A stretch of DNA of 64,000 nucleotides, taken from Styela clava (taxonomy: Eukaryota; Chordata; Ascidiacea; Stolidobranchia; Styelidae). Below, in pieces: positions 11,040-61,638 of the stretch. Position numbers and translations under genes: made by a program. The notes below the pieces were generated by a model that was not told the origin of the DNA, ran no database searches, and saw only the letters and a list, made by a program, of their open reading frames with translations. Position 1 is the first letter of the stretch; every line of letters starts with the position of its first letter. Location of the stretch: contig NC_135259.1 of the NCBI RefSeq assembly GCF_964204865.1, positions 18,424,974-18,488,973 of the forward strand, written 5' to 3'.

Positions 11040-11056
11040 TCCCAGATGGTCTAGGG
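11040..11056 (+). pseudogene. 5' piece of hAT-interrupted tRNA-Glu
   Basis: First 17 nt of a tRNA-Glu, ending in the target duplication GTCTAGGG (11049-11056). The gene continues at 13431. Confidence 0.9.
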
Positions 11057-11079
11057 CAGCGGTTCCCAACCTTTGCAAC

Positions 11080-11545
11080 CTGGCGGACCGGTAAAATTGA
11101 ACAAAATGTACTCGCGGACCGGCAAAAAATTGAAATGATATAGTAACATATATTTTCGTAATAAATGCATTGACGGGCACTCACTATGTTTCTAGGTAAA
11201 AAGGCACACAGAAAACTTTTTAAATGAAAAAAACAAAAACAAATAAATAATAATGTACCGGCCAAAAATTGGAACGGATGGAACATAACAATAAAAAAAC
11301 AATTACGTAATATATTTGCGTAATAAAATGCAGTGCTGGGCCCCATTACGCGTATAAAAAGGCACACAGAAAACTTTTTGGATAAAAAAAAATCTTTCAA
11401 ATAATGTACCGGCCAAAAATTGAAACGGGTGGAACATAACAATAGCAAAACAATAACGTAATATATTAGCGTGATAAAATGCAGTGCTGGGCACCCATTA
11501 TACGTAATAAAGGCACACAGAAAACTTTTTGAATGAAAAAAAAAA
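11080..11545. repeat. Three tandem ~130-150-bp subterminal repeats in the hAT element
   Basis: Three diverged units, each with an ACCGGC(C)AAAAATTG-like start and GGCACACAGAAAACTTTTT near the end. They lie downstream of the transposase reading frame. Confidence 0.8.
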
Positions 11546-11547
11546 TA

Positions 11548-12836
11548 TTAAATACAATTAAACTTTAATGAGAACTTTGCTGCTGTTTCGTTTCTAATAT
11601 AAGATGCAAACGAGGAATCAAAGAAGTTTCTGCTACACGTAGCTCTGCAGCGGCGTCCAGTCGATTTCTCTGCTTCGTTTTGATTAAAACTAAGGATGAA
11701 AAACTTTTTCGCATAAGTAGCTGGTTGAAAATACGGACAACAGTTTGATTGCTCGATCACTTAGCGATGGGTATTCGTTATAAAGAGATATCCAGAATTG
11801 TGACAATGATTCCTTTTTAAATCTGGACTTTAAAGTAGAATCACAACACAGTTCAAGCAAACTTTCTTTTTCATCAGGTTTGAGGTTACATGTATCCACA
11901 TCTTCGTAAAATGGATTGTTGATCCAAAGATTTCCTTGTCGGGGATCCTCATTTTGCTGGAAATGATGATCAAAATTGTTCCGCAATTCGTTCAAGTTAA
12001 CATCAACACTTGACATATAATCGTTCAAAGTTGGGAACATGACTATATTTTCTTCGAGTACATAACGATTCCACATAGCCAGCTTCTTCTTGAATGCATC
12101 AGTCTTATTTCTCAGCACAAAAATATTAGTGCAAGCGCCTTGTAGGGATGTATTGAGTTCATTCAAGCGACCAAATATATCTGCCAGATAAGCAAGCTTG
12201 CACAACCACGTTTCATCCGTTAACTGCTTCAGCGCCCAAAATCTCTTCAGCTGCAGATAAGATGCACGGCTTTACTAACTCTTCCCCAATTGTGTACGGT
12301 TTTCTTGTTTTAGCGATTTGAAGAGAAATTTGATATGATGCACGAAGAGGAGATTTTTCTGAGGTTGTTATATTTTTCAGTTGCTTCTTCTGGTTGTTCA
12401 TGTCGATGAGAAGTCGTTCAAAAAATTCAACAGGCTTGCCTTTGAGATTGCTGTGCTTTGAGTGAAAATGTCGAGCAAGTTTTGAAGGTTTCATAGCATC
12501 ATTGGAAAGAACTTGGGCACAAACTAAACATAAAGGCCGTGGTGATTGTTCACTACCAGGAGCTACAGTAAAAGCAAGTTCCATTTATTTTTCATCGTAT
12601 TTCCTTACAAATTCGAACTTTTTCTTCTTGCTTTCTCTTGTGACAGTTAACGTATCTTGGCATGTTCTTTTCTTGGCTCGTTTAACATTTGCATTATTTG
12701 TACTCGCTTCGTCTCCTTTTTGAGATTTATCTGATCCGGAAGAAGACCTATTCTCCTTGTCAAAAAACATCAAAATACTTTGTTGGTTGGCTGATTTCAT
12801 ATTAATCTCTCTGTAGTTGATCGACGCCTCAAACAA
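11548..12836 (-). pseudogene. hAT transposase relic (BED-finger type)
   Basis: Read from 12836 downward. An 83-codon N-terminal part ends in an in-frame stop at 12585-12587. The next codon starts a 123-codon part with a BED zinc finger: C-X2-C (LCLVC), then H-X4-H (HFHSKH) 16 residues on. Near 12213 the frame jumps to the C-terminal third, so the catalytic core is deleted. The rest (to 11690) holds the hAT dimerisation signature FW..L..EYP.LS and STSYLCE, and a frameshift near 11700 separates the last ~50 residues. It resembles domesticated ZBED5/SCAND3-type proteins in metazoans (family knowledge). It cannot make an active transposase. Confidence 0.88.
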
Positions 12837-13430
12837 AATGAATTTGGGTTACAATGACAAGGTCGTCGTTAACTTTGCACTAGGCTCAAGATCCTGCTGT
12901 GCAACACCTGGAAAAGATCTCTGCGGCCCATGCTACTGTTGCGCGTCTCGTGACCACCTGCAGGGTCGCAACAAGTTCATTACTTACTGGATGGATGTCA
13001 AGACGAAGCCGTGGTATATTATACTGTTTTTGACTGTTTTTGTATGGCGTCACGTATGAACAAAGAAATATTCATAAACTTTTATTTGGATGGTCATATT
13101 TAGCAGCAAAATTATACAGAACCGAGCCGGTTTTTACGTTTCTGAATCTTGAGAGGGTTAACGGAGCGCTCTCGCGGTAGATCGCAATCGGGAAAGCGAA
13201 AAGGTAATCAATCGGCGCCAAGATGTCGCCAGGCGGCACTTATCAAACAGCAATATGACGACGGAAGAGAAATTGCGTAATAAACTAACGCAACTTCAAC
13301 TTTTTGGCTTCGGTTAAGCGATTGAAACGGCATATAGAACAAAACGAGGAAATCTCTCGCGGACCGGCAAAAAAGCTTCGCGGACCGGTGCCGGTCCGCG
13401 GACCGGCGGTTGGGAACCACTGGTCTAGGG

Positions 13431-13485
13431 GTAAGGATTCCCGGCTTTCACCCAGGTGGCCCGGGTTCGATTCCCGGTCTGGGAA
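13431..13485 (+). pseudogene. 3' piece of hAT-interrupted tRNA-Glu(TTC)
   Basis: Continues from the target duplication 13423-13430 through loop CTTTCAC to TCTGGGAA. Anticodon stem CCCGG has one mismatch. Confidence 0.9.
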
Positions 13486-13736
13486 CCTTTTTCTCCAGCA
13501 CAGAGCTGTCAGTTTTTGTTGCGAAACTCTAGATAATGAATGATGGAAGCTTTACATTATAGTCTATATACATAGAGCGACTATTAGGAATATGGTAGCA
13601 AATTAAATAAATTAGCTGCTTACAGAAGGCAGAAATACATAAAGCGTTTTTAAACTACATGAATATTAATTCTGAGGTACTGAAATAAGTTGACACGAAT
13701 TCATTTTTAAAATATTTATCAACCTATGAATTCATA

Positions 13737-13808
13737 TCCCAGATCGTCTAGGGGTTAGGATTCCTGGCTTTCACCCAGGCGGCCCGCGTTCGATTCCCGG
13801 TCTGGGAA
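13737..13808 (+). tRNA. tRNA-Glu(TTC), Glu-T
   Basis: Complete; T stem reads CCGCG, a mismatch at position 52. D arm starts CGTCTAGG. Confidence 0.75.
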
Positions 13809-14153
13809 CTATTTTCTCCAGCAAAGATCTGTCAGTTTTTGTTGCGAAACTCTAGGAAATGAATGCTGGAATCTTTACATTATAGTCTATATATATAGAG
13901 CGACTATTAAAAATATGGTAGCAAAATAAATAAATTATCTGTTTACAGAATGCAGAAATACATATGAAAGCTTTACACTACAGGCTATATTCATAAAGCG
14001 ACTTAAAAATAAGGTAGCAAAACTGGAACGTTTTGAGTGGGCCATTAGTGACATTTCATTTGATGATGAAACTTGCACGGATATTAATTCAGTGGTGCTA
14101 AAATAATTTAACAGTAATTCATTTTAAAATAGTTACTAGCTTATGAATTCATA

Positions 14154-14224
14154 TCTCAGATGGTCTAGGGGTTAGGATTCCTGGCTTTTATCCATGCGGC
14201 CCGGATTCGATTCCCGGTCCGGAA
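14154..14224 (+). pseudogene. tRNA-Glu-like, Glu-K (TTT)
   Basis: Loop CTTTTAT: anticodon TTT with position 38 also changed. Shortened acceptor TCCGGAA. Confidence 0.8.
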
Positions 14225-14398
14225 CCTTTTTATCCAGCAAAGATCCTGTAAGTGTTCGTTTCGAAAAGCCAGAATATAAATGATGGTAGCTTCACACTAC
14301 AGTCTATATACATATAGCGACTTAAGAATATGGTAGCAGAATAAATAAATTAGCTGCTTACAGAAGGCAAAAATACATAAAGTGTTTAGGAATACATA

Positions 14399-14470
14399 TC
14401 CCAGATGGTCTAGGGGTTAGGATTCGTGGCTTTCACCCAGGCGGCCCGGGTTCGATTCCCGGTCTGGGAA
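14399..14470 (+). tRNA. tRNA-Glu(TTC), Glu-T
   Basis: Complete; anticodon stem CGTGG has one mismatch. Confidence 0.8.
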
Positions 14471-14765
14471 CCTTTTTATCCAGCAATAATCTGTTCAGTT
14501 TTTGTTGCAAAACTCTATGAAATGAATAATGGAAGCTTTACACTACAGTCTATATACATAGAGCGACTATTAAGAATATGGTAGCGAAATAAATGAATTA
14601 GCTACTTACAGAAGGCAGAAATACATAAAGCGTTTTAAACTACTATGATATTAATTCAGTGGTGCTAAAATAAGTTAACACCAATTCATTTTAAAAATAT
14701 TTATGGTAGTAAAATAGGTTAATACTAATTCATTTTCAAAATAATTATCAGCGTATGAATTCATA

Positions 14766-14837
14766 TCCCAGAAGGTCGAGGGGTTAGAATTCCTGGCTTT
14801 CACCCAGGCGGCCCGGATTCGATTCCCGGTCTGGGAA
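14766..14837 (+). tRNA. tRNA-Glu(TTC), Glu-G
   Basis: Acceptor perfect; GTCGAGG and G53A. Confidence 0.7.
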
Positions 14838-15071
14838 CCTTTTTATCCAGCAAAGATCCTGTCAGTGTTCGTTTCGAAAAGCCAGAAAGTAAATGATGGA
14901 AGTTTCACCTTACAGTCTATATGCATAAAGCGAATAAAGAATATGGTAGCAAAATAAATAAATTAGCTGCTACAGAAGGCAGAAATACATAAAGCGTTTT
15001 AATACATGGATATTAATTCAGTGGTGCAAAAATAAGTAAAACACCAATTCATTTTTAAAATATTTATCAAC

Positions 15072-15134
15072 GGTTAGGGGTTAGGATTCCTGGCTTTCAC
15101 CCAGGCGGCCCGGATTCGATTCCCGGTCTGGGAA
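15072..15134 (+). pseudogene. tRNA-Glu pseudogene, Glu-X (TTC)
   Basis: 5'-truncated; also carries G53A. Confidence 0.85.
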
Positions 15135-15350
15135 CCTTTTTCACCAGCAAAGATCTGTCAGTGTTCGTTTCGAAACGCCAGAAAATAAATGATGGAAGAA
15201 AGAATAAGGTAGCAAAATGAATAAATTAGCTGCTTACAGAAGGCAGAAATAAATAAAGCGTTTTTAAACTACATGGATATTAATTCAGTGGTACTGAAAT
15301 AAGTTACCACTAATTCATTTTTAAAATACTTATCAGCCTAATAATGCATA

Positions 15351-15422
15351 TCCCAGATGGCTTAGGGGTTAGGATTCCTGGCTCTCACCCAGGCGGCCCG
15401 GGTTCGATTCCCTGTCTGGGAA
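15351..15422 (+). tRNA. tRNA-Glu(CTC), Glu-C
   Basis: Acceptor perfect, loop CTCTCAC; A-box region is GCTTAGG and T stem 3' side CCTGT is mismatched. Confidence 0.75.
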
Positions 15423-15619
15423 CATTTTTATCCAGCAAAGATCTGTCAATTATTGTTGCGAAACTCTATTAAATGAATATGGAAGCTTTACACTATAGTC
15501 TATATACAGAAGGCAGAAATACATAAAGCGTTTTAAACTACATTGATATTAATTCAGTGGTGCTAAAATAAGTTAACACCTATTCATTTTTAAAATATTT
15601 ATCAGCGTATGAATTCGTA

Positions 15620-15691
15620 TCCCAGATGGTCTTGGGGTTAGGATTCCTGGCTTTTACCCAGGCGCCCCGTGTTCGATTCCCGGTCTGGGAA
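15620..15691 (+). tRNA. Full-length Glu-body tRNA with anticodon TTT
   Basis: Unlike Glu-K, this copy has a perfect TCCCAGA/TCTGGGA acceptor and a paired CCTGG/CCAGG stem around CTTTTAC, so the lysine anticodon TTT is well presented. T stem CCGTG/CCCGG is imperfect, as in Glu-X at 1791. Confidence 0.7.
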
Positions 15692-16002
15692 CCTTTTTAT
15701 CCAGCAAAGATCTGTCAGTGTTCGTTTCGAAACGCCAGAAAGTAAATGATGGAAGAAAGAATATGGAAGCAAAATAAATAAATTATCTGCTTACAGAATG
15801 CAGAAATACATATGGAAGCTTTACACTACAGGCTATATTCATAAAGCGACTTAAAAATAAGGTGGCAAAACTTGAACGTTTCGAGTGGGCCATTAGTGAC
15901 ATTTTATTTGATGATGAAACTTGCACGGATATTAATTCAGTGGTGCTAAAATATTTTAACAGTAATTCATTTTTAAAATAGGTATTTGCTTATGAATTCA
16001 TA

Positions 16003-16073
16003 TCTCAGATGGTCTAAGAGTTAGGATTCCTGGCTTTTACCCATGCGGCCCGGATTCGATTCCCGGTCCGGAA
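16003..16073 (+). pseudogene. tRNA-Glu-like, Glu-K (TTT)
   Basis: Shortened acceptor, D loop CTAAGAG. Confidence 0.8.
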
Positions 16074-16427
16074 CATTTTTATCCAGCAAAGATCCTGTAA
16101 GTGTTCGTTTCGTAAAGCCAGAATATAAATGATGGTAGCTTCACACTACAGTCTATATACATATAGCGACTTAAGAATATGGTAGCAGAATAAATAAATT
16201 AGCTGCTTACAGAAGGCAGAAATACATAAAGTGTTTTAAATACTGACGTTGTAAACTACTTAAATATTAATTCAGTAGTGCTAAAATAAGTTAACAATTG
16301 TTAACGAAGTGAAGTTAACGAGTTATTTCTCAAAAATAGTGGATTTCTCCCAAGGGAACACAACGAGAGAGAGAGAAAAAAGTTACAATCTATTAATTTT
16401 GTAAAAATACGGTATAAAACAAGATAA

Positions 16428-16519
16428 CGTCCCTGGGTGGGCTCGAACCACCAACCTTTCGGTAACCCTCACAATGTGAGATAACAGCCGAACGCGCTGA
16501 CCAATTGCGCCACAGAGAC
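16428..16519 (-). tRNA. tRNA-Asn(GTT), Asn-A, intron
   Basis: Type sequence, 18-nt intron present. Confidence 0.9.
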
Positions 16520-16606
16520 GGACGGGAGTTAGGACATGTTAAGTTGCAATATAATACAATTGAGCTATAAATTCTATTTGTTAATCTGTAACATAGGTTT
16601 GTAGTG

Positions 16607-16643
16607 ACACCCAGACGTCCCGGGTTCGATTTCGGTCTGGGAA
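16607..16643 (+). pseudogene. tRNA-Glu 3' half, Glu-H
   Basis: One base shorter than its relatives in the T stem. Confidence 0.75.
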
Positions 16644-17031
16644 CGTTTTTGTCGAGCAAATTTCTGTCAGTTTTTATTGCGAAACGCTAGGAAGTGAATG
16701 ATGGAAGCTTTACACCACAGTCTATATACATAAAGCGACTATTAAGAATATGGTAGTGAAATAAATAATTTAGCTGCTTACAGAAGGCAGAAATACATAA
16801 AGAATTTTAAACTACATGGATATTAATTTAGTGGTGCTAAAATAAGTTAAAACTAAATCATTTTTAAAATATTTATCAGCCTAAGAATTCATATCCCATA
16901 TGGTACTAAAATATCTTAACACTAATTCATTTTAAATATATTTATCAGCCTAAGAATTCATATCCCAGATGGTACTAAAATAAGTTAACACCAATTCATT
17001 TTTAAAATATTCATCAGCGTATTAATTCATA

Positions 17032-17103
17032 TTCCAGATGGTCTAGGGGTTAGCATTCCTGGCTTTCACCCAGGCGGCCCGGGTTCGATTCCCGGTCTGG
17101 GAA
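17032..17103 (+). tRNA. tRNA-Glu(TTC), Glu-T
   Basis: Starts TTCCAGA (wobble with TCTGGGA); D stem has TAGCATT. Anticodon and T arms intact, TTTTT follows. Confidence 0.85.
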
Positions 17104-17398
17104 CCTTTTTATCCAGCAATAATCTGTTCAGTTTTTGTTGCAAAACTCTAGGAAATGAATAATGGAAGCTTTACACTATAGTCTATATACATAGAGCGAC
17201 TATTAAGAATATGGTAGCGAAATAAATGAATTAGCTACTTACAGAAGGCAGAAATACATAAAGCGTTTTAAACTACTAGGATATTAATTCAGTGGTGCTA
17301 AAATAAGTTAACACCAATTCATTTTAAAAATATTTATGGTAGTAAAATAGGTTAATACTAAGTCATTTTTAAAATATTTATCAGCGTATGAAATCATA

Positions 17399-25974: not shown

Positions 25975-25991
25975 TCCCAGATGGTCTAGGG
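25975..25991 (+). pseudogene. 5' piece of a second interrupted tRNA-Glu
   Basis: 17 nt ending GTCTAGGG (25984-25991), exactly where the first hAT inserted. Confidence 0.85.
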
Positions 25992-26485
25992 CATAGGTTC
26001 TCAAAGTGCTCCGTACGGAGCCCCAGGGCTCCGCGAGAGAAACCCAGGGGCTCCGCGAGCTATTCGGTTACTTTTTAAAATACCGACTTGGCTAATTTAA
26101 AACTGTTCCTAGAAGCAATAACAGCTTTAATAAAATTTGACAACAATATAGCCTAGAAATATGGCAAAGTGGCGGAATTAAAAAATGACATTATTTATAA
26201 GCAGGAGCGCAGCCAGGATTCTTAAGAGGGAGGAGGTTAAAAATTGGAATCGGAAATTTACGCGTAACATTCTTGGCGATTCAAAAAAAAACGGATAACG
26301 AGATTTCTGTTGCGTAAAATATTCCATTCATGTCCGATGCGAGCATTTAAAGTATCTTGTCGTAATAATTTAATTGTGCTCATCGTTACTCACGTTCGAT
26401 TCGAGATTACTATTAGGATTACTATAATGAAAAAATTCTATTCTAAAATAACATAAACTGTGTGATAAACTGCCAACTATTGGCA
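25992..26485. mobile_element. Truncated hAT-like element fragment
   Basis: Starts CATAGGTTCTCAAAGTG with repeated GGGGCTCCGCGAG motifs, typical of hAT ends. No matching right terminus: the insert ends with the hairpin CTGCCAA CTA TTGGCAG and joins directly to the last 17 nt of a tRNA-Glu, so about 40 bp of the gene is lost. A motif GGAGCGCAGCCAGGATTCTT at ~26205 may be the edge of another element. No coding sequence. Confidence 0.7.
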
Positions 26486-26502
26486 GATTCCCGGTCTGGG
26501 AA
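26486..26502 (+). pseudogene. 3' remnant of the interrupted tRNA-Glu
   Basis: GATTCCCGGTCTGGGAA, T-arm 3' side and acceptor only. Confidence 0.8.
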
Positions 26503-28387: not shown

Positions 28388-28390
28388 ACT

Positions 28391-36354: not shown

Positions 36355-36405
36355 TGGCCAGTACGGGGATCGAACCCGCGACATTCGCGTTATTAGCACG
36401 ACGCT
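36355..36405 (-). pseudogene. 3' part of LINE-interrupted tRNA-Ile(AAT)
   Basis: Contains the anticodon arm, T arm and 3' acceptor. Ends at the target duplication GCACGACGCT (36396-36405), where the LINE poly(A) tail begins. Confidence 0.92.
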
Positions 36406-36428
36406 TTTTTTTTTTTTTTTTTTTTTTT
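36406..36428 (-). other. Poly(A) tail of the LINE (T23 on + strand)
   Basis: An uninterrupted run of 23 T directly at the target duplication; lack of interruptions suggests a recent insertion. Confidence 0.92.
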
Positions 36429-36910
36429 ATTGCGGATCAGAATTTTTTCAGTAGCTCGGATCAGTGTCTTGAAGACACGTCATATCCGAGTCATATCGGT
36501 ATAACGCTTCATAAGCATGCCACTGCGTGAGCAGCAGTCATATACTTATGGAGGCTTCAGTATTTGCTGCGCCACTGCAAGACACAAACTTCCACCCCGG
36601 GGTTCGGCATATGCTGTTTGCCACAGCATTGCTTTATTCCGGGGCTTCTGTCTATGCCACGCAGAGCACAACACAACTTCCGCCACTCCCGGCTTCCGTA
36701 CATACTGCGTAAAACTGCACACAGCATGCCATCCACCGCGAAGCTTCCGATTCATCACATCCGCTAAGTGGGAGATGGTATTTCTTAGTGTTTAAAAGGG
36801 CTAAAAGCTGTAGTTACTAAGCCGAAAGGTATGCTATTGTTTGTGGTGGTTGAAAATTTTTCCATTTCGGGAAAAGTTTTAACGTTGACCAGATGGTAGA
36901 GAGGAAAGCG
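36429..36910 (-). other. LINE 3' UTR
   Basis: Non-coding between the ORF2 stop and the poly(A). Short frames overlap here in several phases and are not credible genes. Confidence 0.8.
36553..36755. repeat. Degenerate 42-51-bp tandem repeat in the LINE 3' UTR
   Basis: GGCTTC or close variants recur at 36553, 36601, 36643, 36691 and 36742 with related sequence between. Might be the RNA structure recognised by the element's reverse transcriptase (speculation). Confidence 0.55.
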
Positions 36911-39900
36911 TTAGGTCAGCAAATACCCATTCAGGATCTCCTTCCAATTGACCAGCAGCCCCAAAAACAGTAGATCTTTGTGCTTGTTTTCCATTATGTT
37001 CAAAAATTGTGCAATCTTTACTGTCGTTGATTGGATTATACTTTTGTCAGTGGGGGCCAAATATCTGTTTTCAATATCCAGTTTGATCTTTTGTTGAATT
37101 ATGGTGGTTTTTATCAGTACGAAGCATTTTATAGTAATAATCTGGTGCGGTCCATTGTAGCTGTTGTAGAAAATTTCGTCCTTTGTTATTTGTATTGGAC
37201 TGTAGAGTATTTTGTTGAGGATTTGTGTTATTTCTGAAATGTAAGCTTTTACGACACTGCAGTAAAAAAACAGGTGTTTGGTACTATCTGAATTGTTATT
37301 ACAAAATTTACAGTTAAGTATTTTTTGAACGCCGGATGTTCCAAACCTGAGGGTCATACCCCTCATCCTATCCCCGAATACATATCCTTCCCTGGCAATT
37401 CTGTAAGTAACAACTCTTTCAGCATTGGAGAAAAATGACCTAGTGACGTTTTTCCGTAGATGGACATCCTCCCAATTTGCATCTTCCGATTGCGGGTCAG
37501 GATAAAGGTTTTTAAGTTTTTGATAAAGGTGTTTTCGTTTTGAGGTTTGCCAGTCCTCATGCGAAAAGTTTAAAGTCCAGAAAATTTCTAAGATATATTT
37601 CCAATAATGCGGTACTACAGGAGCGTGGGGCATTGAGTTGCTGTATAGTTTTTTATTTATTGTGTTGATTTTGGAGCCCAAAGCGTATAAGGCTTCGATG
37701 TGCCAAAATTGATCAAGTGTTCTGCCGTCTACAAATGCTTTCATTTTCTCGACCTGGCAGGCTTTTACCTTTGCTTGGACGTCGATTAAGTTTATTCCTC
37801 CCCGAGTCCATGGTAGCTGCAACTTTTTTCTACCTACGGATTCAATTTTTTCAGGATACCACAAAAATTTGCATATCGAATTTTGGATTTTCTTAATCTC
37901 TCCCAATGACATTGATTTAGTTCTCGCATGAAATATAATAATTGACATAACCAAGGAATTTATGATCACCAATTTTCCATACCAGGTGAGCTGTCTAGTT
38001 TTTAAGTAATTTAGTGTCCGGGTAAGTTTGGTTCCAATTTCGTCCCACATTTTAGCTAGTGTTTTTTTTCCGAAATTTATACCGAGTATTTTTACGTCAT
38101 CTTTGATATATCGAACAAGAGAAGAGTTGGATATTGATCTGCGTGAGGATTCCGTGATACATAAAATTTCAGTTTTATCTTTATTAATTGTTTGTCCAGA
38201 TGCCAGTTTGAAGTTATCTAATTCTTTGAATATTTCTTTGATGGAAGGTTGGTCGGTTACTGCAAATGTGATGTCATCGGCATATTGATCAATCTTATGA
38301 TGGTATGTCCCCAATTTTATACCGTGAATGTTATTATTTGAAAAGACGGATCTAGCAAGAGGCTCTACACATATTGCATATAACAACATGCTCAGCGGGC
38401 ATCCTTGCCTTATGCCACGCTTTATGGTGACTGTATTAGACAACTTACCATTGACATCTATCTGCGATTTAATGTTAAGATACATATTTTTTATGACTTT
38501 TAAGGTCTTGTCCCCAAGTCCAATTTGTTCCAGAATATCAAACAGAAATTTATGATTCACATTATCGAACGCCTTTAAATTATCGATTAGGATCAGCGCC
38601 CCCGGGATGTTTTTAGATCGGCAATATCGCAAAATGGCGTCGGTGTTATAATGAATATCATTCATACTCCGGTGCAATAAGGAGCATTTTTGTGAATTAC
38701 TTATTATTTTGGATATAACCGGCTCTAGCCGTCTTACTATAATTTTTGCTATAATTTTATAGTCCATGTTAAGAGTCGTTATAGGTCTCCAATTTTTCAG
38801 TTCCGTCTCGTCGTTTTTCTTGTATAATAACTTAACTTTTGCGGTTGCTGATGATTTTGGAAAGGGGCCGAAATAAATGACGTTATTGATGAGCTGGGTA
38901 AATGACGTTTTTATTGTGTTCCAAAAAGTCATATAAAATTCTTTGCTAAGTCCATCTATGCCGGGTGATTTGTTGTTTCCAAGTAACTTGATTGCACTGT
39001 AAATCTCACCGCTGGTAACCGGTTGTTCCAATAAAAAGTTTTCTTGCTCAGATATTTGGGTTGAGCTCATTAATGATAGATATTGTCGCTGATAGTGGTC
39101 GTTCGTTTCATGTTCTTTACCCCATAAATCCCCATAGAAGTCTTCAACTATAGACATGATCGCACCCTCTTCTGTCACTACCTGGTTGTTTGCCGTTTTT
39201 AACCTCACTATTGTGGTTTGTTTTGCTCGCTGTTTGATTTTCGAGTAAAAACTTGTGGTTGGTTTTTCATTCTCTTCCAGGTCAGTCAGGTTAGCCATTA
39301 ATGCATCTAATCTGTACTTCTCATTTTGTAGAGATCTTAATTGGGATTTAAGGTTTTCAATTTGCAATAGATTTTCGGCTTTCCCTTCATTAATGAGTTT
39401 GTCTAAATTTTTCCGAATTAGAGTTGTCTGGTTCCTTTTATCTTTGACGACAGTTTTAGAGTATGCGACTGTAGTTTTTTTAATTTTAAGCTTCAATTTG
39501 TCCCACCAGTCTTGAATTTGATAGAAATTTCCCAGTTCAGTCAGAGTAGATTCGAAGGTGTTGTTTATGATTTCTACGTAGGTTGGATCTTTATATAGAG
39601 ACAAGTTGTTGCGCCACGTTCCTTTTCCCCAGCGGACTTTTTGGGTTTTTCTAAGTTGGATTACCGGACATAGCAGATGATCGGCTACGGTGTTTGATGT
39701 GTGCGATATAGAGGCAATGAGGTGTTCCATGCTTTTTGAGTTAAATATATTGTCAATACGGCTGCCGTGTGATCCAGTATGATAGGTAAAAATTTGTTTT
39801 AGTGGGTACTTCTTCCGAAAAGTGTCCTGTATGTTATTTTCTTGGATGTAATTTATAAAAAGTTTTTCTGGGGGTCGAAGTTTAAATTTTCTGGGGTCCA

Positions 39901-40384
39901 GGATGTCAGTTTGTTTCAGAACGAAATTAAAGTCGCCCACTAATAATAAGGTTTGACTATTACCGTAATATGTTAACAGATTGATCAAATTTTTAAAAAA
40001 TTCAGTTTTTCCCGGTCCATTTTGTGCTGGCGCATATATGTTAAATATTTTCATGACTTTACCGTCTATCTGAATCTCCACGCTGTCGCATCAATTTTTG
40101 ATATGGGCATTGTACGTATTCGGTACTATCGGGTTTTCTATCTTTACTAAGATTGCGGTTCCCTGCCAAAATCGACTATGATGTTTATCCGTTATATCGA
40201 GAGTGTTGAAATAAATATTATATCCCAGCATATTGGCCCAGTTTGTCGAAGATTTTTTATCTATCCTATGAACTTCCTGTACGCAGAGTATATTGGGGTT
40301 CTCATGCTGGATGAAACTTTTCATTTCACTCAAGTGTTTATGAAAGCCGTTTGCATTTAAGGAGATTAGCTTTATGAGGGCCAT
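36911..40384 (-). pseudogene. LINE ORF2: endonuclease-reverse transcriptase, one premature UGA
   Basis: Starts at the ATG at 40384 (MALIKLISLNANGF) and stays in one frame to the stop at 36911, about 1157 codons, broken only by TGA at 40091-40093 (codon 98). APE endonuclease residues: NANG and QEVH before the stop; GDFN, SRID and ADH after it. Numbering from 40081 (GTG), RT motifs are: SPGIDGLSKEF ~372-382, NWRPITTLN ~430, motif A IDNLKAFD ~499-506, RQGCPLS ~558, and catalytic YADD ~600-603. A CX2C...HX4C-like cluster (CKFC, HLFFYC) lies near the C-terminus. RT core residues are intact; the UGA would stop translation inside the endonuclease unless read through. Confidence 0.93.
40091..40093 (-). 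other. In-frame UGA in LINE ORF2
   Basis: The frame on both sides is continuous (…YNAHIKN, stop, CDSVEIQIDG…). The only lesion noticed in a ~3.5 kb frame. Confidence 0.9.
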
Positions 40385-40516
40385 GACTTACATTAATGTG
40401 TAAAAAGGGAAAAAATTCGAGCTACCGTTTGTGGTAGTTGGATATTTGGTCACCTTAGTTTAAATAAATATTGTTCATTTACGGGTTTATAGCAGAACAA
40501 AGAAGTTTCACTTACA
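40385..40516 (-). other. Gap between LINE ORF1 and ORF2
   Basis: 132 bp, non-coding; no overlap between the frames, so ORF2 must be translated by reinitiation, internal entry or from its own start. Confidence 0.75.
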
Positions 40517-42007
40517 TCATTTTTTCTTCTTTCCTATGATCCCCTTGTCCAATGATGACTCGGAAGATGTTGTTTCCTGTCTGTTTCTCTTGTTGTTGTA
40601 GTCCTTATTTTCCATAAATGATTCATTTATATCCAAATTCAGTTTGTTCGGCAGAGGAGTACTTTCTTCTAGATATGCGGGGGCGGAATGAATTTCTAAT
40701 GGTGAGGTAGAGAAACAGGACGATGGTGTGTCCTGTTGTTCAATATTGTGGACCATCACCTTAACATATGCCCTGCCCTTTGATGGCGGGTTATAGGGCG
40801 TATTGCCAATCGTTGAGGTTTTTTTCAGTCGTGACGTCTGCCTGGTATTGATGCATTTCGGCGGTGTCTTGATGATTGGGCTAATTACATTCTCGATTTC
40901 TTCACACTCCGACCAATTAGATATCTCTTTTAAATTGCTTGTTGGTGATTCCACTGCGGAGGAAGAGAATTCTGATATATCAATTTGTACAGGTTCTTGA
41001 GTGTCTTCCAATTGTATGATGCCTTTGTTTTGATTTTGCTCTGCGTTTCGTTCTTTCTCACCATTTTGTTTCGGTTCATTGATTTTTCGTTCGTCTTCCA
41101 CAGGGTTGTTCGGCCGTTCATTGTATTCTTGAGGAATTCCCTTGTTTGTGCCTATTTCGGGCGACTTTGATGGCATTGTTGCGTCTTCTTCACGTCCATT
41201 GCATTGTACAGGTTGAGTACTTGTTGGTACGAGGTTTTCAGAGGCGTTTTGAACAGTTGTTGGTTGTTCTCTACGTCTGGGTGCAGACCATGCGTCGCTG
41301 GGGTTGCGTTGGAGTGTGGGATATTCCTTCTCTCGCTGGTCGCAGTTCCTTCGAAGGTGACCCGATTTCTTGCAGTGTCTGCAAACGGGGTCATTTTCAC
41401 ATTCATTGAAGATGTGGCCCGTCTGCAGACATCTGCCACACGTAGGCGTATATAGTTCTCGTGGTAGAAACGTTTTGCATCTTCGGCCATTGATGTTAAC
41501 GAAGTCCGGCAATTTTTCTTTATTGAAATCTTCCATTAAAAACGAAGTATATCCATTGTATATTTGTGTTCCTCTATAAAAGTTACGAACAGCACTTTGA
41601 ATCTTTCCACAACCAAGGTTATTCACGGTTGCTGCGGCCTTGGAAAATATCGTTTCGTATATAATTCCCCTTATGGAGATACGAACAGGTGGTTTGTTTG
41701 GCATCGATACTTCTATCTCTACTCCATCTGCTCTGATCAACCCACCAGTAGCTTTGAAGAATTCGTCGCGGCAGCTTTTTCCATCTACTTCGGCAAAGGA
41801 GAGTAACCATGAGCCCTTTCGGGACTCAAATAACCCCCTTATTTGGTCGCAGAATTTCTGTGTTCTTTCGTTTTTTTTCAGTAAGTCCAATAAAGTGGCG
41901 AAATCCATGTCTTGCTTTGTGTTCAGGTATACTGTCAGCGGTTGCGTGTTTACAGGTGAATTTGTTGATTCCGTTGGTGGTGTTGCTGCAGCTGCGGAGT
42001 AACCCAT
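40517..42007 (-). CDS. LINE ORF1: CCHC zinc-knuckle nucleic-acid-binding protein
   Basis: 496 codons, intact, ATG at 42007 (MGYSAAAATPP). N-terminal ~180 residues are globular. Two zinc knuckles follow: C190-X2-C193-X4-H198-X4-C203 and C209-X2-C212-X4-H217-X4-C222. The C-terminal half is polar, rich in E, N, P and S, and ends in GKKKK. This fits the ORF1 of Tx1-type LINEs, an RNA-binding protein that packages the element RNA (family knowledge). No nuclease or helicase motif. Confidence 0.92.
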   Translation of the reverse strand: MGYSAAAATPPTESTNSPVNTQPLTVYLNTKQDMDFATLLDLLKKNERTQKFCDQIRGLFESRKGSWLLSFAEVDGKSCRDEFFKATGGLIRADGVEIEVSMPNKPPVRISIRGIIYETIFSKAAATVNNLGCGKIQSAVRNFYRGTQIYNGYTSFLMEDFNKEKLPDFVNINGRRCKTFLPRELYTPTCGRCLQTGHIFNECENDPVCRHCKKSGHLRRNCDQREKEYPTLQRNPSDAWSAPRRREQPTTVQNASENLVPTSTQPVQCNGREEDATMPSKSPEIGTNKGIPQEYNERPNNPVEDERKINEPKQNGEKERNAEQNQNKGIIQLEDTQEPVQIDISEFSSSAVESPTSNLKEISNWSECEEIENVISPIIKTPPKCINTRQTSRLKKTSTIGNTPYNPPSKGRAYVKVMVHNIEQQDTPSSCFSTSPLEIHSAPAYLEESTPLPNKLNLDINESFMENKDYNNKRNRQETTSSESSLDKGIIGKKKK

Positions 42008-42139
42008 TTTATTGAATTGTAATCCAGGCAGTCAAGTATACTTTCTAGTTCTTTCCTGATTTATACTCGAATGACACTATAGATTTCCTGTCTGAGACGC
42101 GTCGACATTTGCAGACATCTCAAACTACGCTCCACTCGC
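42008..42139 (-). other. LINE 5' UTR
   Basis: ~132 bp from the target duplication to the ORF1 ATG. It would hold any internal promoter; none is recognisable. Confidence 0.7.
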
Positions 42140-42149
42140 GCACGACGCT

Positions 42150-55477: not shown

Positions 55478-55549
55478 TCCCAGATGGTCTAGGGGTTAGG
55501 ATTCCTGGCTCTCACCCAGGCGGCCCGGGTTCGTTTCCCGGTCTGGGAA
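55478..55549 (+). tRNA. tRNA-Glu(CTC), Glu-C
   Basis: T loop TTCGTTT loses A58; stems intact. Confidence 0.75.
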
Positions 55550-55744
55550 CATTTTTATCCAGCAAAGATCTGTCAATTGTTGTTGCGAAACTCTATTAAA
55601 TGAATATGGGAGCTTTACACTATAGTCTATATACAGAAGGCAGAAATACATACAGCGTTTTAATACATTGATATTAATTCAGTGGTGCTAAAATAAGTTA
55701 ATACCTATTCATTTTTAAAATATTTATCAGCGTATGAATTCGTA

Positions 55745-55816
55745 TCCCAGATGGTCTAGGTGTTGGGATTCCTGGCTTTCACCCAGGCGGCCCGGGTTCG
55801 ATTCCCGGCCTGGGAA
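55745..55816 (+). tRNA. tRNA-Glu(TTC), Glu-T
   Basis: D loop CTAGGTGTTG; acceptor 3' strand CCTGGGA gives one mismatch. Confidence 0.82.
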
Positions 55817-56171
55817 CCTTTTTCTCCAGCAAGGCTATCTGTCAGTGTTCGTTTCGAAACGCCAGGAAGTAAATGATGGAAGAAAGAATATGGTAGCAAA
55901 ATGAATAAATTAGCTGCTTACAGAAGGCAGAAATACATAAAGCGTTTTAAACTACATGGATATTAATTCAGTGGTACTGAAAAAAGTTAACACTAATTCA
56001 TTTTTAAAATATTTATCAACCTATGAACTCATATCCCATACGGTACTAAAATATGTTAACACTAATTCATTTTAAAAATATTTATCAGCCTTAGAATTCA
56101 TATCCCAGATGGTACTAAAATAAGTTAACACTACTTCATTTTTAAAATATTCATTAGCGCATGAATTCATA

Positions 56172-56243
56172 TCCCAGATGGTCTAGGGGTTAGGATTCCT
56201 GGCTTTCAGCCAGGCGGCCCGGGTTCGATTGCCGGTCTGGGAA
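56172..56243 (+). tRNA. tRNA-Glu(TTC), Glu-T
   Basis: Loop CTTTCAG (position 38), T-stem GCCGG. Confidence 0.75.
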
Positions 56244-56538
56244 TCTTTTTATCCAGCAATAATCTGTTCAGTTTTTGTTGCAAAACTCTAGGAAATAAAT
56301 AATGGAAGCTTTACAATATAGTCTACATACATAGAGCGACTATTAAGAATATGGTAGCGAAATAAATGAATTAGCTACTTACAGAAGGCAGAAATACATA
56401 GAGCGTTTTAAACTACTAGGATATTAATTCAGTGGTGCTAAAATAAGTGAACACCAATTCATTTTAAAAATATTTATGGTAGTAAAATAGGTTAATACTA
56501 ATTCATTTTTAAAATAATTGGCAGCGTATGAATTCATA

Positions 56539-56610
56539 TCCCAGAAGGTCGAGGGGTTAGAATTCCTGGCTTTCACCCAGGCGGCCCGGATTCGATTCCC
56601 GGTCTGGGAA
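56539..56610 (+). tRNA. tRNA-Glu(TTC), Glu-G
   Basis: Class type sequence. Confidence 0.7.
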
Positions 56611-56860
56611 CCTTTTTATCCAGCAAAGATCCTGTCAGTGTTCGTTTCGAAAAGCCAGAAAGTAAATGACGGAAGTTTCACCTTACAGTCCATATGCATA
56701 AAGCGACTAAAGAATATGGTAGCAAAATAAATAAATTAGCTGCTTATAGAAGGCAGAAATACATAAAGCGTTTTTAAACTACATGGATATTAATTCAGTG
56801 GTACTGAAATAAGTTAACACGAATTCATTTTTAAAATATTTATCAACCTATGAATTCATA

Positions 56861-56932
56861 TCCCAGATCGTCTAGGGGTTAGGATTCCTGGATTTCACCC
56901 AGGCGGCCCGGGTTCGATTCCCGGTCTGGGAA
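56861..56932 (+). tRNA. tRNA-Glu(TTC), Glu-T
   Basis: Loop ATTTCAC (position 32 is A); all stems paired. Confidence 0.87.
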
Positions 56933-57279
56933 CCTTTTGTTCCAGCAAAGATCTGTCAGTGTTTGTTGCGAAACTCTAGAAAAATGAATGATGGAAGCTT
57001 TACCTTATAGTCTATATATATAGAGCGACTATTAAGAATATGGTAGCAAAATAAATAAATTATCTGTTTACAGAATGCAGAAATACATATGAAAGCTTTA
57101 CACTACAGGCTATATTCATAAAGCGACTTAAAAATAAAGTAGCAAAACTGGAACGTTTCGAGTGGGCCATTAGTGACATTTTATTTGATGATGAAACTTG
57201 CACGGATATTAATTCAGTGGTGCTAAAATATTTTAACAGTAATTCATTTTTAAAATAGGTTTTAGCTCATGAATTCATA

Positions 57280-57351
57280 TCTCAGATGGTCTAAGGGTTA
57301 GTATTCCTGGCATTCACCCAGGCGGCCCGGGTTCGATTCCCGGTCTGGGAA
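57280..57351 (+). tRNA. tRNA-Glu(TTC), U33 lost
   Basis: Loop CATTCAC: U33 is A. 5' half is Glu-K-like (TCTCAGA, CTAAGGG), 3' half is Glu-T, suggesting a joint inside the gene. Confidence 0.75.
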
Positions 57352-57567
57352 CATTTTTCTCCAGCAAAGATCTGTCAGTGTTCGTTTCGAAACGCCAGAA
57401 AGTAAATGATGGAAGAAAGAATAAGGTAGCAAAATGAATAAATTAGCAGCTTACAGAAGGCAGAAATACATAAAGCGTTTTTAAACTACATGGATATTAA
57501 TTCAGTGGTACTGAAATAAGTTAACACTAATTCATTTTTAAAATACTTATCAGCCTAATAATTCATA

Positions 57568-57639
57568 TCCCAGATGGTCTAGGGGTTAGGATTCCTGGCT
57601 CTCACCCAGGCGGCCCGGGTTCGATTCCCGGTTTGGGAA
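57568..57639 (+). tRNA. tRNA-Glu(CTC), Glu-C
   Basis: 3' strand TTTGGGA, one acceptor mismatch. Confidence 0.85.
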
Positions 57640-57836
57640 CATTTTTATCCAGCAAAGATCTGTCAATTTTGGTTGCGAAACTCTATTAAATGAATATGGA
57701 AGCTTTACACTATAGTCTATATACGGAAGGCAGAAATACATAAAGCGTTTTAAACTACATTGATATTAATTCAGTGGTGCTAAAATAAGTTAACACCTAT
57801 TCATTTTTAAAATATTTATCAGCGTATGAATTCGTG

Positions 57837-57908
57837 TCCCAGATGGTCTAGGGGTTAGGATTCCTGGCTTTCACCCAGGCGGCCCGGGTTTGGTTCCCGG
57901 TCTGGGAA
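57837..57908 (+). tRNA. tRNA-Glu(TTC), Glu-T, T-loop damaged
   Basis: T loop TTTGGTT loses C56 and A58. Confidence 0.7.
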
Positions 57909-58296
57909 CCTTTTTATCCAGCAAAGATCTGTCAGTGTTCGTTTCGAAAAGCCAGAAAGTAAATGATGGAAGTTTCACCTTACAGTCTATATGCATAAAG
58001 CGACTATTAAGAATATGGTAGTGAAATAAAAAAATTAGCTGCTTACAGAAGGCAGAAATACATAAAGAATTTTAAACTACATGGAAATTAATGTAGTGGT
58101 GCTAAAATAAGTTAAAACCAATACATTTTTAAAATATTTATCAGCCTAAAAATTCATATCCTATATGGTACTAAAATATGCTAATACTAATTCATTTTAA
58201 ATATATTTATCAGCCTAAGAATTCATATCCCAGATGGTACTAAAATAAGTTAACACTAACTCATTTTTGAAATATTCATCAGCGCATGAATTCATA

Positions 58297-58368
58297 TCCC
58301 AGATGGTCTAGGGGTTAGTATTCCTGGCTTTCACCCAGGCGGCCCGGGTTCGATTCCCGGTCTGGGAA
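58297..58368 (+). tRNA. tRNA-Glu(TTC), Glu-T
   Basis: One D-stem change (TTAGTATT); all else consensus. Confidence 0.87.
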
Positions 58369-58663
58369 TCTTTTTATCCAGCAATAATCTGTTCAGTTTT
58401 TGTTGCAAAACTCTAGGAAATGAATAATGGAAGCTTTACACTATAGTCTATATACATAGAGCGACTATTAAGAATATGGTAGCGAAATAAATGAATTAGC
58501 TACTTACAGAAGGCAGAAATACATAAAGCGTTTTAAACTACTAGGATATTAATTCAGTGGTGCAAAAATAAGTTAACATCAATTCATTTTAAAAATATTT
58601 ATGGTAGTAAAATTGGTTAATACTAATTCATTTTTAAAATATTTATCAGCGTATGAATTCATA

Positions 58664-58735
58664 TCCCAGAAGGTGGAGGGGTTAGAATTCCTGGCTTTCA
58701 CCCAGGCGGCCCGGATTCGATTCCCGGTCTGGGAA
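58664..58735 (+). tRNA. tRNA-Glu(TTC), Glu-G
   Basis: D arm GTGGAGG, one step beyond the class sequence; G53A. Confidence 0.65.
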
Positions 58736-58842
58736 CCTTTTTATCCAGCAAAAATCTGTCGGGTGTTAGGACATGTTAAGTTCAATATAATACAATTGAG
58801 CTATCAATTCTATTTGTTAATCTGTAACATAGGTTTGTAGTG

Positions 58843-58880
58843 ACACCCAGACGGCCCGGGTTCGATTCCCGGTCTGGGAA
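58843..58880 (+). pseudogene. tRNA-Glu 3' half, Glu-H, without its Asn neighbour
   Basis: The upstream tRNA-Asn has been deleted; the junction lies near 58757. Confidence 0.8.
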
Positions 58881-59130
58881 CGTTTTTGTCGAGCAAATTT
58901 CTGTCAGTTTTTCTTGCGAAACGCTAGGAAGTGAATGATGGAAGCTTTACACCACAGTCTATATACATAAAGCGACTATTAAGAATATGGTAGTGAAATA
59001 AATAAATTAGCTGCTTACAGAAAGCAGAAATACATAAAGAATTTTAAACTACATGGATATTAATTTAGTGGTGCTAAAACAAGTTAACACCAATTCATTT
59101 TTAAAATATTCATCAGCGTATAAATTCATA

Positions 59131-59202
59131 TCCCAGATGATCCAGGGGTTAGGATTCCTGGCTTTCACCCAGGCGACCCGGGTTCGATTCCCGGTCTGGG
59201 GA
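59131..59202 (+). tRNA. tRNA-Glu(TTC), Glu-T
   Basis: D arm GATCCAGG; last acceptor base changed (TCTGGGG then A). Confidence 0.75.
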
Positions 59203-59454
59203 CCTTTTTGTCCAGCAAAGATCTGTCGGTTTTTGTTGCGAAACAATAGAAAATGAATGATGGAAGCTCGTTACACTACAGTCTATATATAGAGAGCGAC
59301 TATTGGGAATATTGTAGCGAATTAAATAAATTAGCTGCTTACAGAAGTCAGAAATACATAAAGAATTTAAAACTACATGGGTACTATTTCAGTGGTACTG
59401 AAATAAGTTAACACTAATTCATTTTTAAAATATTTATCAGCCTATGAATTCATA

Positions 59455-59526
59455 TCCCAGATGATCTAGGGGTTAGTGTTCCTGGCTCTCACCCAGGCGG
59501 CCCTGGTTCAATTCCCGGTCTGGGAA
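59455..59526 (+). tRNA. tRNA-Glu(CTC), Glu-C
   Basis: D stem TTAGTGTT and T stem CCTGG/TTCAATT changed. Confidence 0.75.
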
Positions 59527-59677
59527 CCATTTTAATCCAGAAAAGATCGGAAAGTTTTTGTTGCAAAACTCTAGGAAATGAATGATGGAAGCTCTACATT
59601 AGAGTCTATATACATAGAGCGGCTATTAAGAATATGGTAGCAAAATAAATGAATTAGCTACTTACTAAATTAGCTAC

Positions 59678-59692
59678 TTCCCGGTCTGGGAA
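59678..59692 (+). pseudogene. 15-nt tRNA-Glu 3' fragment
   Basis: TTCCCGGTCTGGGAA only, followed by a normal spacer; left by deletion of most of a gene. A similar fragment is at 63841. Confidence 0.7.
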
Positions 59693-59860
59693 CCTTTTTG
59701 TCGAGCAAATATCTTTCAGTATTTGTTGCGAAACGATAGGAAGTGAATGATGGAAGCTTTACACCACAGTCTTTGTACATAAGGCGATATTAGTTCAGTG
59801 GTACTGAAATGAGGAAACACCAATTCATTTTTAAAATATTTATCAGCCTAACAATTCATA

Positions 59861-59932
59861 TCCCAGATGGTCTGGGGGTTAGGATTCCTGGCTCTCACCC
59901 AGGCGACCCGGGTTCGATTCCCGGTCTGGGAA
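59861..59932 (+). tRNA. tRNA-Glu(CTC), Glu-C
   Basis: D loop CTGGGGG and GCGACCC in the variable region; stems intact. Confidence 0.87.
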
Positions 59933-60129
59933 CATTTTTATCCAGCAAAGATCTATCAATTTTTGTTGCGAAACTCTATTAAATGAATATGGAAGCTTTA
60001 CACTATAGTCTATATACAGAATGCAGAAATACATAAAGTGTTTTAAACTACATTGATATTAATTCAGTGGTGCTAAAATAAGTTAACACCTATTCATTTT
60101 TAAAATATTTATCAGCCTATGAATTCGTA

Positions 60130-60201
60130 TCCCAGATGGTCTAGGGGTTAGGATTCCTGGCTTTCACCCAGGCGGCCCGGGTTCGATTCCCGGTCTGTGA
60201 A
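60130..60201 (+). tRNA. tRNA-Glu(TTC), Glu-T
   Basis: 3' strand TCTGTGA, one acceptor mismatch. Confidence 0.85.
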
Positions 60202-60417
60202 CCTTTTTATCCAGCAAATACCTGTCAGTGTTCGTTTCGAAACGCCAGAAAGTAAATGATGGAAGAAAGAATATGGTAGCAAAATGAATGAATTAGCTGC
60301 TTACCGAAGGCAGAAATACATAAAGCGTTTTTAAACTACATGGATATTAATTCAGTGATACTGAAATAAGTTAACACTAATTCATTTTTAAAATACTTAT
60401 CAGCTTAATAAGTCATA

Positions 60418-60489
60418 TCCCAGATGGTCTAGGGGTTAGGATTCCTGGCTCTCACCCAGGCGGCCCGGGTTCGATTCCCGGTCTGGGAA
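60418..60489 (+). tRNA. tRNA-Glu(CTC), Glu-C, consensus
   Basis: No deviation seen. Confidence 0.93.
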
Positions 60490-60725
60490 CATTTTTATTC
60501 AGCAAAGATCTGTCAGTTGTTGTTGCAAAACTCTATTAAATGAATATGGAAGCTTTACACTATAGTCTATATACATAGAGCATGGTAGCGAAATAAATAA
60601 ATTAGCTACTTACAGAAGGCAGAAATACATAAAGCGTTTTAAACTACATTGATATTAATTCAGTGGTGCTAAAATAAATTAACACCAATTCATTTTTAAA
60701 ATATTCATCAGCGTATGAATTCATA

Positions 60726-60797
60726 TCCCAGATGGTCTATGGGTTAGGATTTCTGGCTTTCACCCAGGCGGCCCGGGTTCGATTCCCTGTCTGGGAA
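60726..60797 (+). tRNA. tRNA-Glu(TTC), Glu-T
   Basis: D loop CTATGGG, stem TCTGG (wobble), T stem CCTGT (mismatch). Confidence 0.8.
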
Positions 60798-60965
60798 CAT
60801 TTTTATCCAGCAAAGATCTGTCAGATGTTGTTGCGAAACTCTAGGAAATAAATGATGGAAGCTTTACACCACAGTCTTTGTACATAAGGCGATATTAGTG
60901 CAGTGGTACTGAAATGAGTTAACACCAATTCATTTTTAAAATATTTATCCGCTTAATAGTTCATA

Positions 60966-61037
60966 TCCCAGATGGTCTAGGGGTTAGGATTCCTGGCTCT
61001 CACCCAGGCGGCCCGGGTTCGATTCCCGGTCTGGGAA
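60966..61037 (+). tRNA. tRNA-Glu(CTC), Glu-C, consensus
   Basis: No deviation seen; CCTTTTT terminator. Confidence 0.93.
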
Positions 61038-61253
61038 CCTTTTTATTCAGCAAAGATCTGTCAGTGATCGTTTCGAAACGCCAGAAAGTAAATGATGGAA
61101 GAAAGAATATGGTAGCAAAATAAACAAATTAGCTTCTTACAGAAGGCAGAAATACATAAAGCGTTTTTAAACTACATGGATATTAATTCAGTGGTACTGA
61201 AATAAGTTAACACGAATTCATTTTTAAAATATTTATCAACCTATGAATTCATA

Positions 61254-61270
61254 TCCCAGATCGTCTAGAG
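61254..61270 (+). pseudogene. 5' piece of a third interrupted tRNA-Glu
   Basis: 17 nt ending in GTCTAGAG (61263-61270), the left target copy. Confidence 0.9.
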
Positions 61271-61630
61271 CAGTGTTTTTCAACCTTTTTCGAGCCAAGG
61301 CACCCTTTTTCCAGTGAGAAAATCCCGCGGCACACCACCAGCTGAAAATATGGCGAAAATACCTAATATTCACAATATAAGTGTTATATTGTTAATATAA
61401 CATTGAAGAAAGATGTTGAATTGGACATCTTGAATAGTAATCAAATAAAAACAAAGACAAAAAAAAATCGCCACCAGATGCTGCCACGGTCTGATATAGA
61501 ACAGTACCACACGATTACTCTGCCGGACGCTACACCGCATAGACACACAACTTGGAGAATTTCCCACGGCACCCCTGACAATATTTAACGGCACACCGGT
61601 GTGCCGCGGCACCCCGGTTGAAAAACACTG
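61271..61630. mobile_element. 360-bp hAT-type MITE
   Basis: Perfect 15-bp inverted ends CAGTGTTTTTCAACC, with GGCACACC/GGTGTGCC-rich subterminal sequence. Flanked by GTCTAGAG and GTCTAGGG (one mismatch in 8 bp). No coding sequence. A different family from the element at 11057, as the ends differ. Confidence 0.92.
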
Positions 61631-61638
61631 GTCTAGGG

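Follow-up and report, generated by a model that had tools for sequence, protein, structure and literature searches.

Introduction

Dada DNA transposons are described, in the excerpts of the literature cited in this work, as inserted specifically in transfer RNA (tRNA), small nuclear RNA (snRNA) or 5S genes, some of them in the A box (nucleotides, nt, 8-13), with target-site duplications of 6-7 bp (PMC3706591, PMC8869645). Site choice within tRNA genes is likewise reported for non-long-terminal-repeat (non-LTR) retrotransposons related to the NeSL clade, with LIN25_SM in tRNA-Glu, LIN15_SM in tRNA-Arg and NeSL-1_TV in tRNA-Pro (PMC4640811). According to the same excerpts, TRE5-A integrates at a distance from the tRNA gene and not inside it (PMC3706591), and Mu and P elements show no enrichment in ribosomal RNA (rRNA) and tRNA genes (PMC7337890). 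Buster-type hAT transposons (TcBuster, Mar) are marked by 8-bp TA-centred duplications and by short ends starting with CAG (PMC3499496, PMC3517528), and in human cells TA was at the centre of the target in 26,871/27,985 TcBuster integrations (PMC3499496). Here we describe hAT-type elements that have repeatedly entered the same eight nucleotides of tRNA-Glu genes in a tandem tRNA array of Styela clava. The stretch analysed, hereafter the window, comprises 64,000 nucleotides (C13:18424974-18488973), and positions given without the contig name are counted from its first letter.

No report of recurrent hAT insertion at tRNA-Glu was found among the open-licence literature matches listed, a scope outside which most subscription papers fall. 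The reading that we consider probable is that these are ordinary hAT insertions, mostly of TA-centred (Buster-type) families, for which the preference for a particular octamer and the dense array suffice, so that no targeting by the tRNA gene or by RNA polymerase III (Pol III) is needed.

Recurrent insertion at one tRNA-Glu octamer

The window lies in a genome of 376.6 Mb in 379 contigs, and ARAGORN called 97 tRNAs in it, 69 of which are tRNA-Glu (counted from its list). Together with the stretches fetched on either side it forms a continuous 259 kb, in which tRNA-Glu genes start near 18334167 and are still going at 18558973, the end of the fetched part; this fetched portion of the array, window included, is referred to below as the 225-kb array part. 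The tRNA-Glu gene sequence starts with TCCCAGATGGTCTAGGGGTTAGG, and its D arm, at the A box, reads GTCTAGGG (nt 10-17 in 165/345 intact copies of the 225-kb array part).

With up to 3 mismatches allowed, the window contains 91 tRNA-Glu 5' halves. In 88 of them the 3' half comes next at the normal distance, and the other 3 are split, each after nt 17. The 225-kb array part contains 355 such 5' halves (up to 4 mismatches), of which 345 are intact and four are split by hAT-type elements, again all after nt 17. Of the remaining six, four are truncated or have an internal deletion, one gives way to other DNA in its T arm, and one runs off the end of the stretch.

The first of the three window insertions is hAT1, a 2,366-bp element (11057-13422, coding remains on the minus strand) with the ends CAGCGGTTCCCAACC and GGTTGGGAACCACTG. 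It follows nt 1-17 of a plus-strand tRNA-Glu (11040-11056), the last eight of which form the left duplication GTCTAGGG (11049-11056, plus strand); the right duplication, also GTCTAGGG, lies at 13423-13430 (plus strand) and leads into the rest of the tRNA-Glu, up to about 13485. The second is a one-ended fragment of the hAT2 family (25992-26485, plus strand) with the end CATAGGTTCTCAAAG, whose left flank is GTCTAGGG (25984-25991, plus strand, tRNA-Glu nt 10-17). It is without a right end, and tRNA-Glu sequence, from the 3' part of the gene, reappears only near 26486. The third is a 360-bp hAT-type miniature inverted-repeat transposable element (MITE; 61271-61630, plus strand) with the ends CAGTGTTTTTCAACC and GGTTGAAAAACACTG, between a left duplication GTCTAGAG (61263-61270, plus strand) and a right duplication GTCTAGGG (61631-61638, plus strand), after which the tRNA-Glu continues; the two flanks agree at 7/8 positions. 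The octamer entered by all three is GTCTAGRG. A first-pass annotation of the window had placed three hAT-type insertions after nt 17 of tRNA-Glu, and this holds with both duplications for hAT1 and the MITE, and with the left junction only for the fragment.

Two further insertions at the same octamer were found outside the window. One (L009, 1514-2284 = C13:18334804-18335574) is a 771-bp element with the ends CAGTGGCGTAGC and GCTACGCCACTG; it lies after tRNA-Glu nt 17 and is flanked by perfect GTCTAGGG duplicates. The other (L011, same contig, at 18716904) is a full-length 2,304-bp element of the hAT2 family with a perfect duplication at the tRNA-Glu octamer. The left end of the window fragment, when reverse-complemented, matches the right end of L011, which means that the hAT2 family has entered the octamer in both orientations. 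A genome-wide search with a left-junction pattern gave three matches, namely L009, hAT1 and L011; since this pattern misses the window fragment and the MITE, five is the minimum number of events. A right-junction pattern gave seven matches, of which one is a real junction (the MITE) and six are tRNA-Glu starts that are unbroken there, with C at position 5.

There are thus at least five events from four families at the tRNA-Glu octamer. They are independent, as the first-pass annotation had maintained for the three in the window on account of their different ends: ends and families differ, and hAT2 is present in both orientations. It is hardly conceivable that all descend from a single insertion that was copied along with the array repeats and then diverged. 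Inserts can indeed be multiplied in this array, as a 2.45-kb block present in four copies shows, yet the inserts discussed here differ in sequence and ends, and none has a second copy in the array part examined; the two orientations of hAT2 and the family differences rule such duplication out.

The duplications have the length expected of hAT elements, being identical at 8/8 positions in hAT1, L009 and L011, at 7/8 in the window MITE, and at 8/8 in 18/20 other MITE copies; for other copies of hAT1, hAT2 and the L009 family, the flank was read on one side only. Short inverted ends of the CAG..CTG type are present, and the hAT2 family has CATAG at one end and CAGGG at the other.

Target preference of the element families

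First-look searches of the genome returned 117 candidates for the MITE, 1,045 for the hAT1 right end, 1,800 for hAT2 and 321 for the L009 family, figures that stand for candidates and not for verified copies. Forty candidates were scored per family, with the array copy among them, and of the 39 others the flanks were fetched for 20 (MITE, both sides), 39 (hAT1, right side), 38 (hAT2, left side) and 20 copies (L009 family, left side). Merging of copies with alike neighbourhoods reduced hAT1 from 39 to 17 and hAT2 from 38 to 34.

In the independent flanks, TA occupies the centre of the octamer in 33/34 hAT2, 19/20 MITE and 12/17 hAT1 copies, 64/71 in total, and the pooled consensus of the three families is GTCTAGAG, from which the tRNA-Glu word GTCTAGGG differs by one letter. 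The nnnTAnnn preference of the Buster group, invoked in the first-pass annotation, is thereby confirmed for the window families. In contrast, only 1/20 left flanks of the L009 family have TA at the centre, and 1/20 fit the T2..A7 pattern, the duplications of these copies having been read on one side. The target word of the MER1/Charlie elements is NTCTAGAN; it was sought in literature passages and not found in them.

Excluding the array copies, none of the 137 flanks sampled from 117 copies is recognisable as tRNA-Glu, and a T-arm test on 40-50-base flanks detected other tRNA genes in 0/97 hAT and 0/40 MITE flanks. The window families therefore have a Buster-type preference, are dispersed and are not specific to tRNA genes. 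To judge from their octamers, the elements are mechanistically Buster-type hAT insertions, with the difference that here some copies sit in tRNA-Glu, and with the exception that the L009 family is not TA-centred. Hermes, an Ac-type hAT element, shares the 8-bp duplication and the hAT mechanism (PMC10368747); it prefers nTnnnnAn instead of a TA centre, and the L009 family fits neither preference well.

These data also bear on dedicated tRNA targeting as in Dada, which we regard as very improbable. The likeness is that DNA transposons are found within tRNA genes, and that insertion in the A box of a multicopy tRNA gene is described for several Dada families in the excerpts available (PMC3706591, PMC8869645). 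The elements described here, however, have 8-bp and not 6-7-bp duplications and hAT-type CAG..CTG ends, and are dispersed where Dada, as described there, is specific to RNA genes; this explanation is rejected on the length of the duplications and on the dispersal of the copies, with 0/137 sampled flanks in tRNA-Glu.

The octamer lies directly beside the apparent end of another hAT element in 5/71 independent copies (hAT2 3/34, MITE 1/20, hAT1 1/17), as in the arrangement ..GGGAACCACTG-GTCTAGAC-CATAGG.. The hAT2 cases were identified by a strict pattern, while those of the MITE and hAT1 are loose matches judged by eye; the loose counts are 6/34 for hAT2, 3/20 and 2/20 for the two sides of the MITE and 2/17 for hAT1. 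It seems that the duplication left by one hAT insertion is re-used as a target by the next. Such re-use by unrelated hAT families outside tRNA genes, together with the TA centre of TcBuster, supports recognition of the word itself.

Six flanks (L057, L072, L129, L130, L131 and L133) show different hAT ends on either side of exactly one octamer; L130 is a further re-use copy, which had been merged away by the neighbourhood filter. Many of the hAT1 right-end copies (within L063-L096) have near-identical outer flanks, which fall into two large groups, and hAT1 apparently forms part of larger repeats that have themselves multiplied.

Is an effect of the tRNA gene needed?

Uniform chance is ruled out as an explanation, because the tRNA-Glu octamer begins at only 0.17% of the array positions. 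The TA dinucleotide alone is too weak as well: 74 of the 5,076 TA sites in the window lie at nt 10-17, giving P = 3e-6 for three insertions out of three. The CTAG core, on the other hand, suffices in the window (63/134 at nt 10-17, P 0.10). When each array position is weighted by the octamer matrix of the family concerned, the tRNA-Glu octamer receives 51% of the array target weight for hAT2 (bootstrap 33-65%), 28% for the MITE (12-43%) and 5% for hAT1 (2-12%), compared with the 0.17% of a uniform distribution.

The same question was asked of the whole genome, where the two strands have 1,352 and 1,021 copies of GTCTAGGG, respectively. The strand excess of 331, about 14% of the copies, was taken as the tRNA-Glu share of these words; 262 sites run on as GTCTAGGGGTTAGGATT, the tRNA-Glu reading, and would give a share of 11%. 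Multiplying candidate count, matrix probability of GTCTAGGG and the 14% share, 2.7 tRNA-Glu insertions are expected for the three window families and at least 4 are seen (P 0.29), rough figures given that the candidates are unverified, the matrices derive from 17-34 octamers, and it was the window that led to these cases in the first place. By family, seen and expected numbers are 2 and 2.6 for hAT2, 1 and 0.09 for hAT1, and 1 and 0.07 for the MITE.

Thus, for the three window families, the tRNA enrichment beyond sequence on which the first-pass annotation had let its proposal depend is close to absent, both in this comparison and in the flanks of their other copies. Its suggestion that open chromatin, or TFIIIC and Pol III at the A box, may guide the insertions is needless for these families, while the TA-indifferent L009 family leaves room for it. 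We therefore favour word preference combined with the many matching sites of the array, which together account for repeated insertion at one spot of tRNA-Glu without guidance by Pol III. The transposase would bind and cut the octamer directly, the array would offer it several hundred copies of that octamer, and the frequency of hits in tRNA-Glu would roughly match its share of good sites; the loss of single tRNA-Glu copies may be tolerated through gene redundancy.

Several points weigh against this explanation. The joint chance of one insertion each of hAT1, hAT2 and the MITE at the octamer is 0.008 with the matrices of the single families and 0.05 with the pooled matrix, which is small, if not extreme. 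hAT1 is the poorest fit, with its 5% of the array weight, and the exact word GTCTAGGG is present in 0/71 independent octamers. Of the 11 perfect TCTAGA words in the window, 9 lie outside the tRNA-Glu octamer and are without insertion, which speaks mildly against a pure word preference. The count of four insertions is a lower bound, so that the true excess could be larger, and the candidate counts are first-look figures in which the hAT1 copies are largely clonal. Finally, L009 has its perfect GTCTAGGG duplication in spite of belonging to a TA-indifferent family, with P of about 0.0003 when this family is taken by itself; given the large number of hAT families, a coincidence of this kind in one or another of them is less rare than this value. 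The L009 copy and the unused TCTAGA words leave room for a hot-spot component.

A true hot spot at the tRNA-Glu A box, where open chromatin, TFIIIC/Pol III or DNA shape would expose the octamer to TA-centred and TA-indifferent families alike, is the rival with the most weight, and yet an unlikely one. Besides L009 at the identical octamer, it can draw on the single-copy stretches of at least 60 bp in the 225-kb array part, defined as those with no second copy there. There are seven of them (an eighth precedes the array and was left out): four hAT elements at the octamer, one long interspersed nuclear element (LINE) in tRNA-Ile, one stretch that starts within a tRNA-Glu T arm, and one hAT-like fragment in a spacer. 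The last of these counts against a hot spot, as does the agreement of the three window families with the number expected from sequence alone. Furthermore, insertion occurs within the gene at a fixed word, whereas Pol III-directed elements of the Ty1/TRE5-A type integrate at a distance from the gene, as the cited excerpt describes for TRE5-A (PMC3706591). Equally doubtful, in our opinion, is the wider proposal that something beyond the eight letters (DNA shape, the Pol III complex) draws TA-centred and TA-indifferent hAT elements to the octamer, with tRNA-Glu arrays as a safe haven common to unrelated hAT transposons.

The same seven stretches speak to a retention bias, by which insertions would occur all over the array and be kept in redundant tRNA copies. 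The array indeed contains many variant or truncated tRNA-Glu copies. Spacers, however, should tolerate insertions at least equally well, yet they hold only one of the seven, and a single fixed nucleotide would be left unexplained; we consider this bias improbable as the cause.

If the preference of the transposase for its word is the right explanation, a short and mild target preference can mimic strict gene targeting when the word sits in a conserved promoter element of a highly amplified gene, and true tRNA targeting of the Dada kind could plausibly begin from such a preference. Repeated hits in tRNA genes should not be taken for Pol III guidance unless a genome-wide denominator is available. 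The array itself provides hundreds of near-identical sites for measuring the target choice of hAT elements.

A LINE in tRNA-Ile

The window also contains a non-LTR retrotransposon on the minus strand (36405-42139), inserted in the anticodon arm of a minus-strand tRNA-Ile and flanked by the 9-bp duplication GCACGACGC (36396-36404 and 42140-42148). It gave a strong reverse transcriptase match, and matches to an apurinic/apyrimidinic (AP)-type endonuclease and to a CCHC domain that lie below the curated cut-offs. The genome contains 183 candidates of this family, and the 3' flanks were read for 20 of the 39 other scored copies. In 5/20 the flank just after the poly(A) contains a tRNA T arm in sense orientation, compared with 0.07/20 on average for shuffled flanks, and 15/20 are without one. 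Read by eye, the five tRNAs differ in isotype (Pro-, Cys-, Val- and Ser/Leu-like, and one unclear). Rfam returned two irrelevant weak matches only on these flanks. The flanks point to a family that probably has a broad taste for tRNA genes without being confined to them. It resembles the tRNA-targeting non-LTR elements mentioned above in its choice of sites within tRNA genes; those elements, in the cited excerpt, are NeSL-related (PMC4640811), and not hAT, whereas the window LINE has weak AP-type endonuclease matches. Being found at this locus and in several different tRNA genes, the family merits a separate study.

Other features of the elements and of the array

Among the hAT elements, the domain search was made on hAT1 only, whose coding remains are short and broken. 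A 193-amino-acid (aa) open reading frame (ORF) on the minus strand (11690-12271) gave a weak match to the hAT C-terminal dimerisation domain (PF05699, E 0.0018; 18.5 bits, below the curated cut-off of 21.4), and a 123-aa ORF, also on the minus strand (12213-12584), a weak zinc-finger match (PF18658, E 0.0067, below the cut-off). Comparison of one hAT1 ORF with solved structures gave no hAT match and two unrelated weak matches. The element also contains 151-bp tandem repeats (11198-11544). In viral contigs, five stretches fitted a peptide pattern from the hAT ORF, none of which was confirmed, and the tRNA-Glu/hAT junction pattern had no match.

At C13:18521255-18522471 (L028), a tRNA-Glu breaks off at its T arm and the remainder is replaced by 1.2 kb of foreign DNA, which has neither clean ends nor a duplication. 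The hAT-like fragment in a spacer (CAGGCCTGCACAACATACGGCCCGCGGGCC..., C13:18529971-18530618, L029) has one end only and is a counterexample to insertion in tRNA genes alone. A tRNA-Glu copy at C13:18376953 (L019), truncated downstream, reads GTCTAG-TCTAGGGG (GTCTAG-TCTAGGG). This may be the trace of a hAT excision, in which the element would have gone after duplicating the octamer; as a single case it proves nothing.

The 2.45-kb block mentioned above (approximate length) is present in four copies in C13:18415146-18431220, with the window copies at 1-1705 and 3798-6247. It has the ends CACTTTCGATGCCAAG and CTTGGCATCGAAAGTG and internal 342-bp inverted repeats, has been multiplied with the array, and is probably another DNA transposon, located in the spacer.

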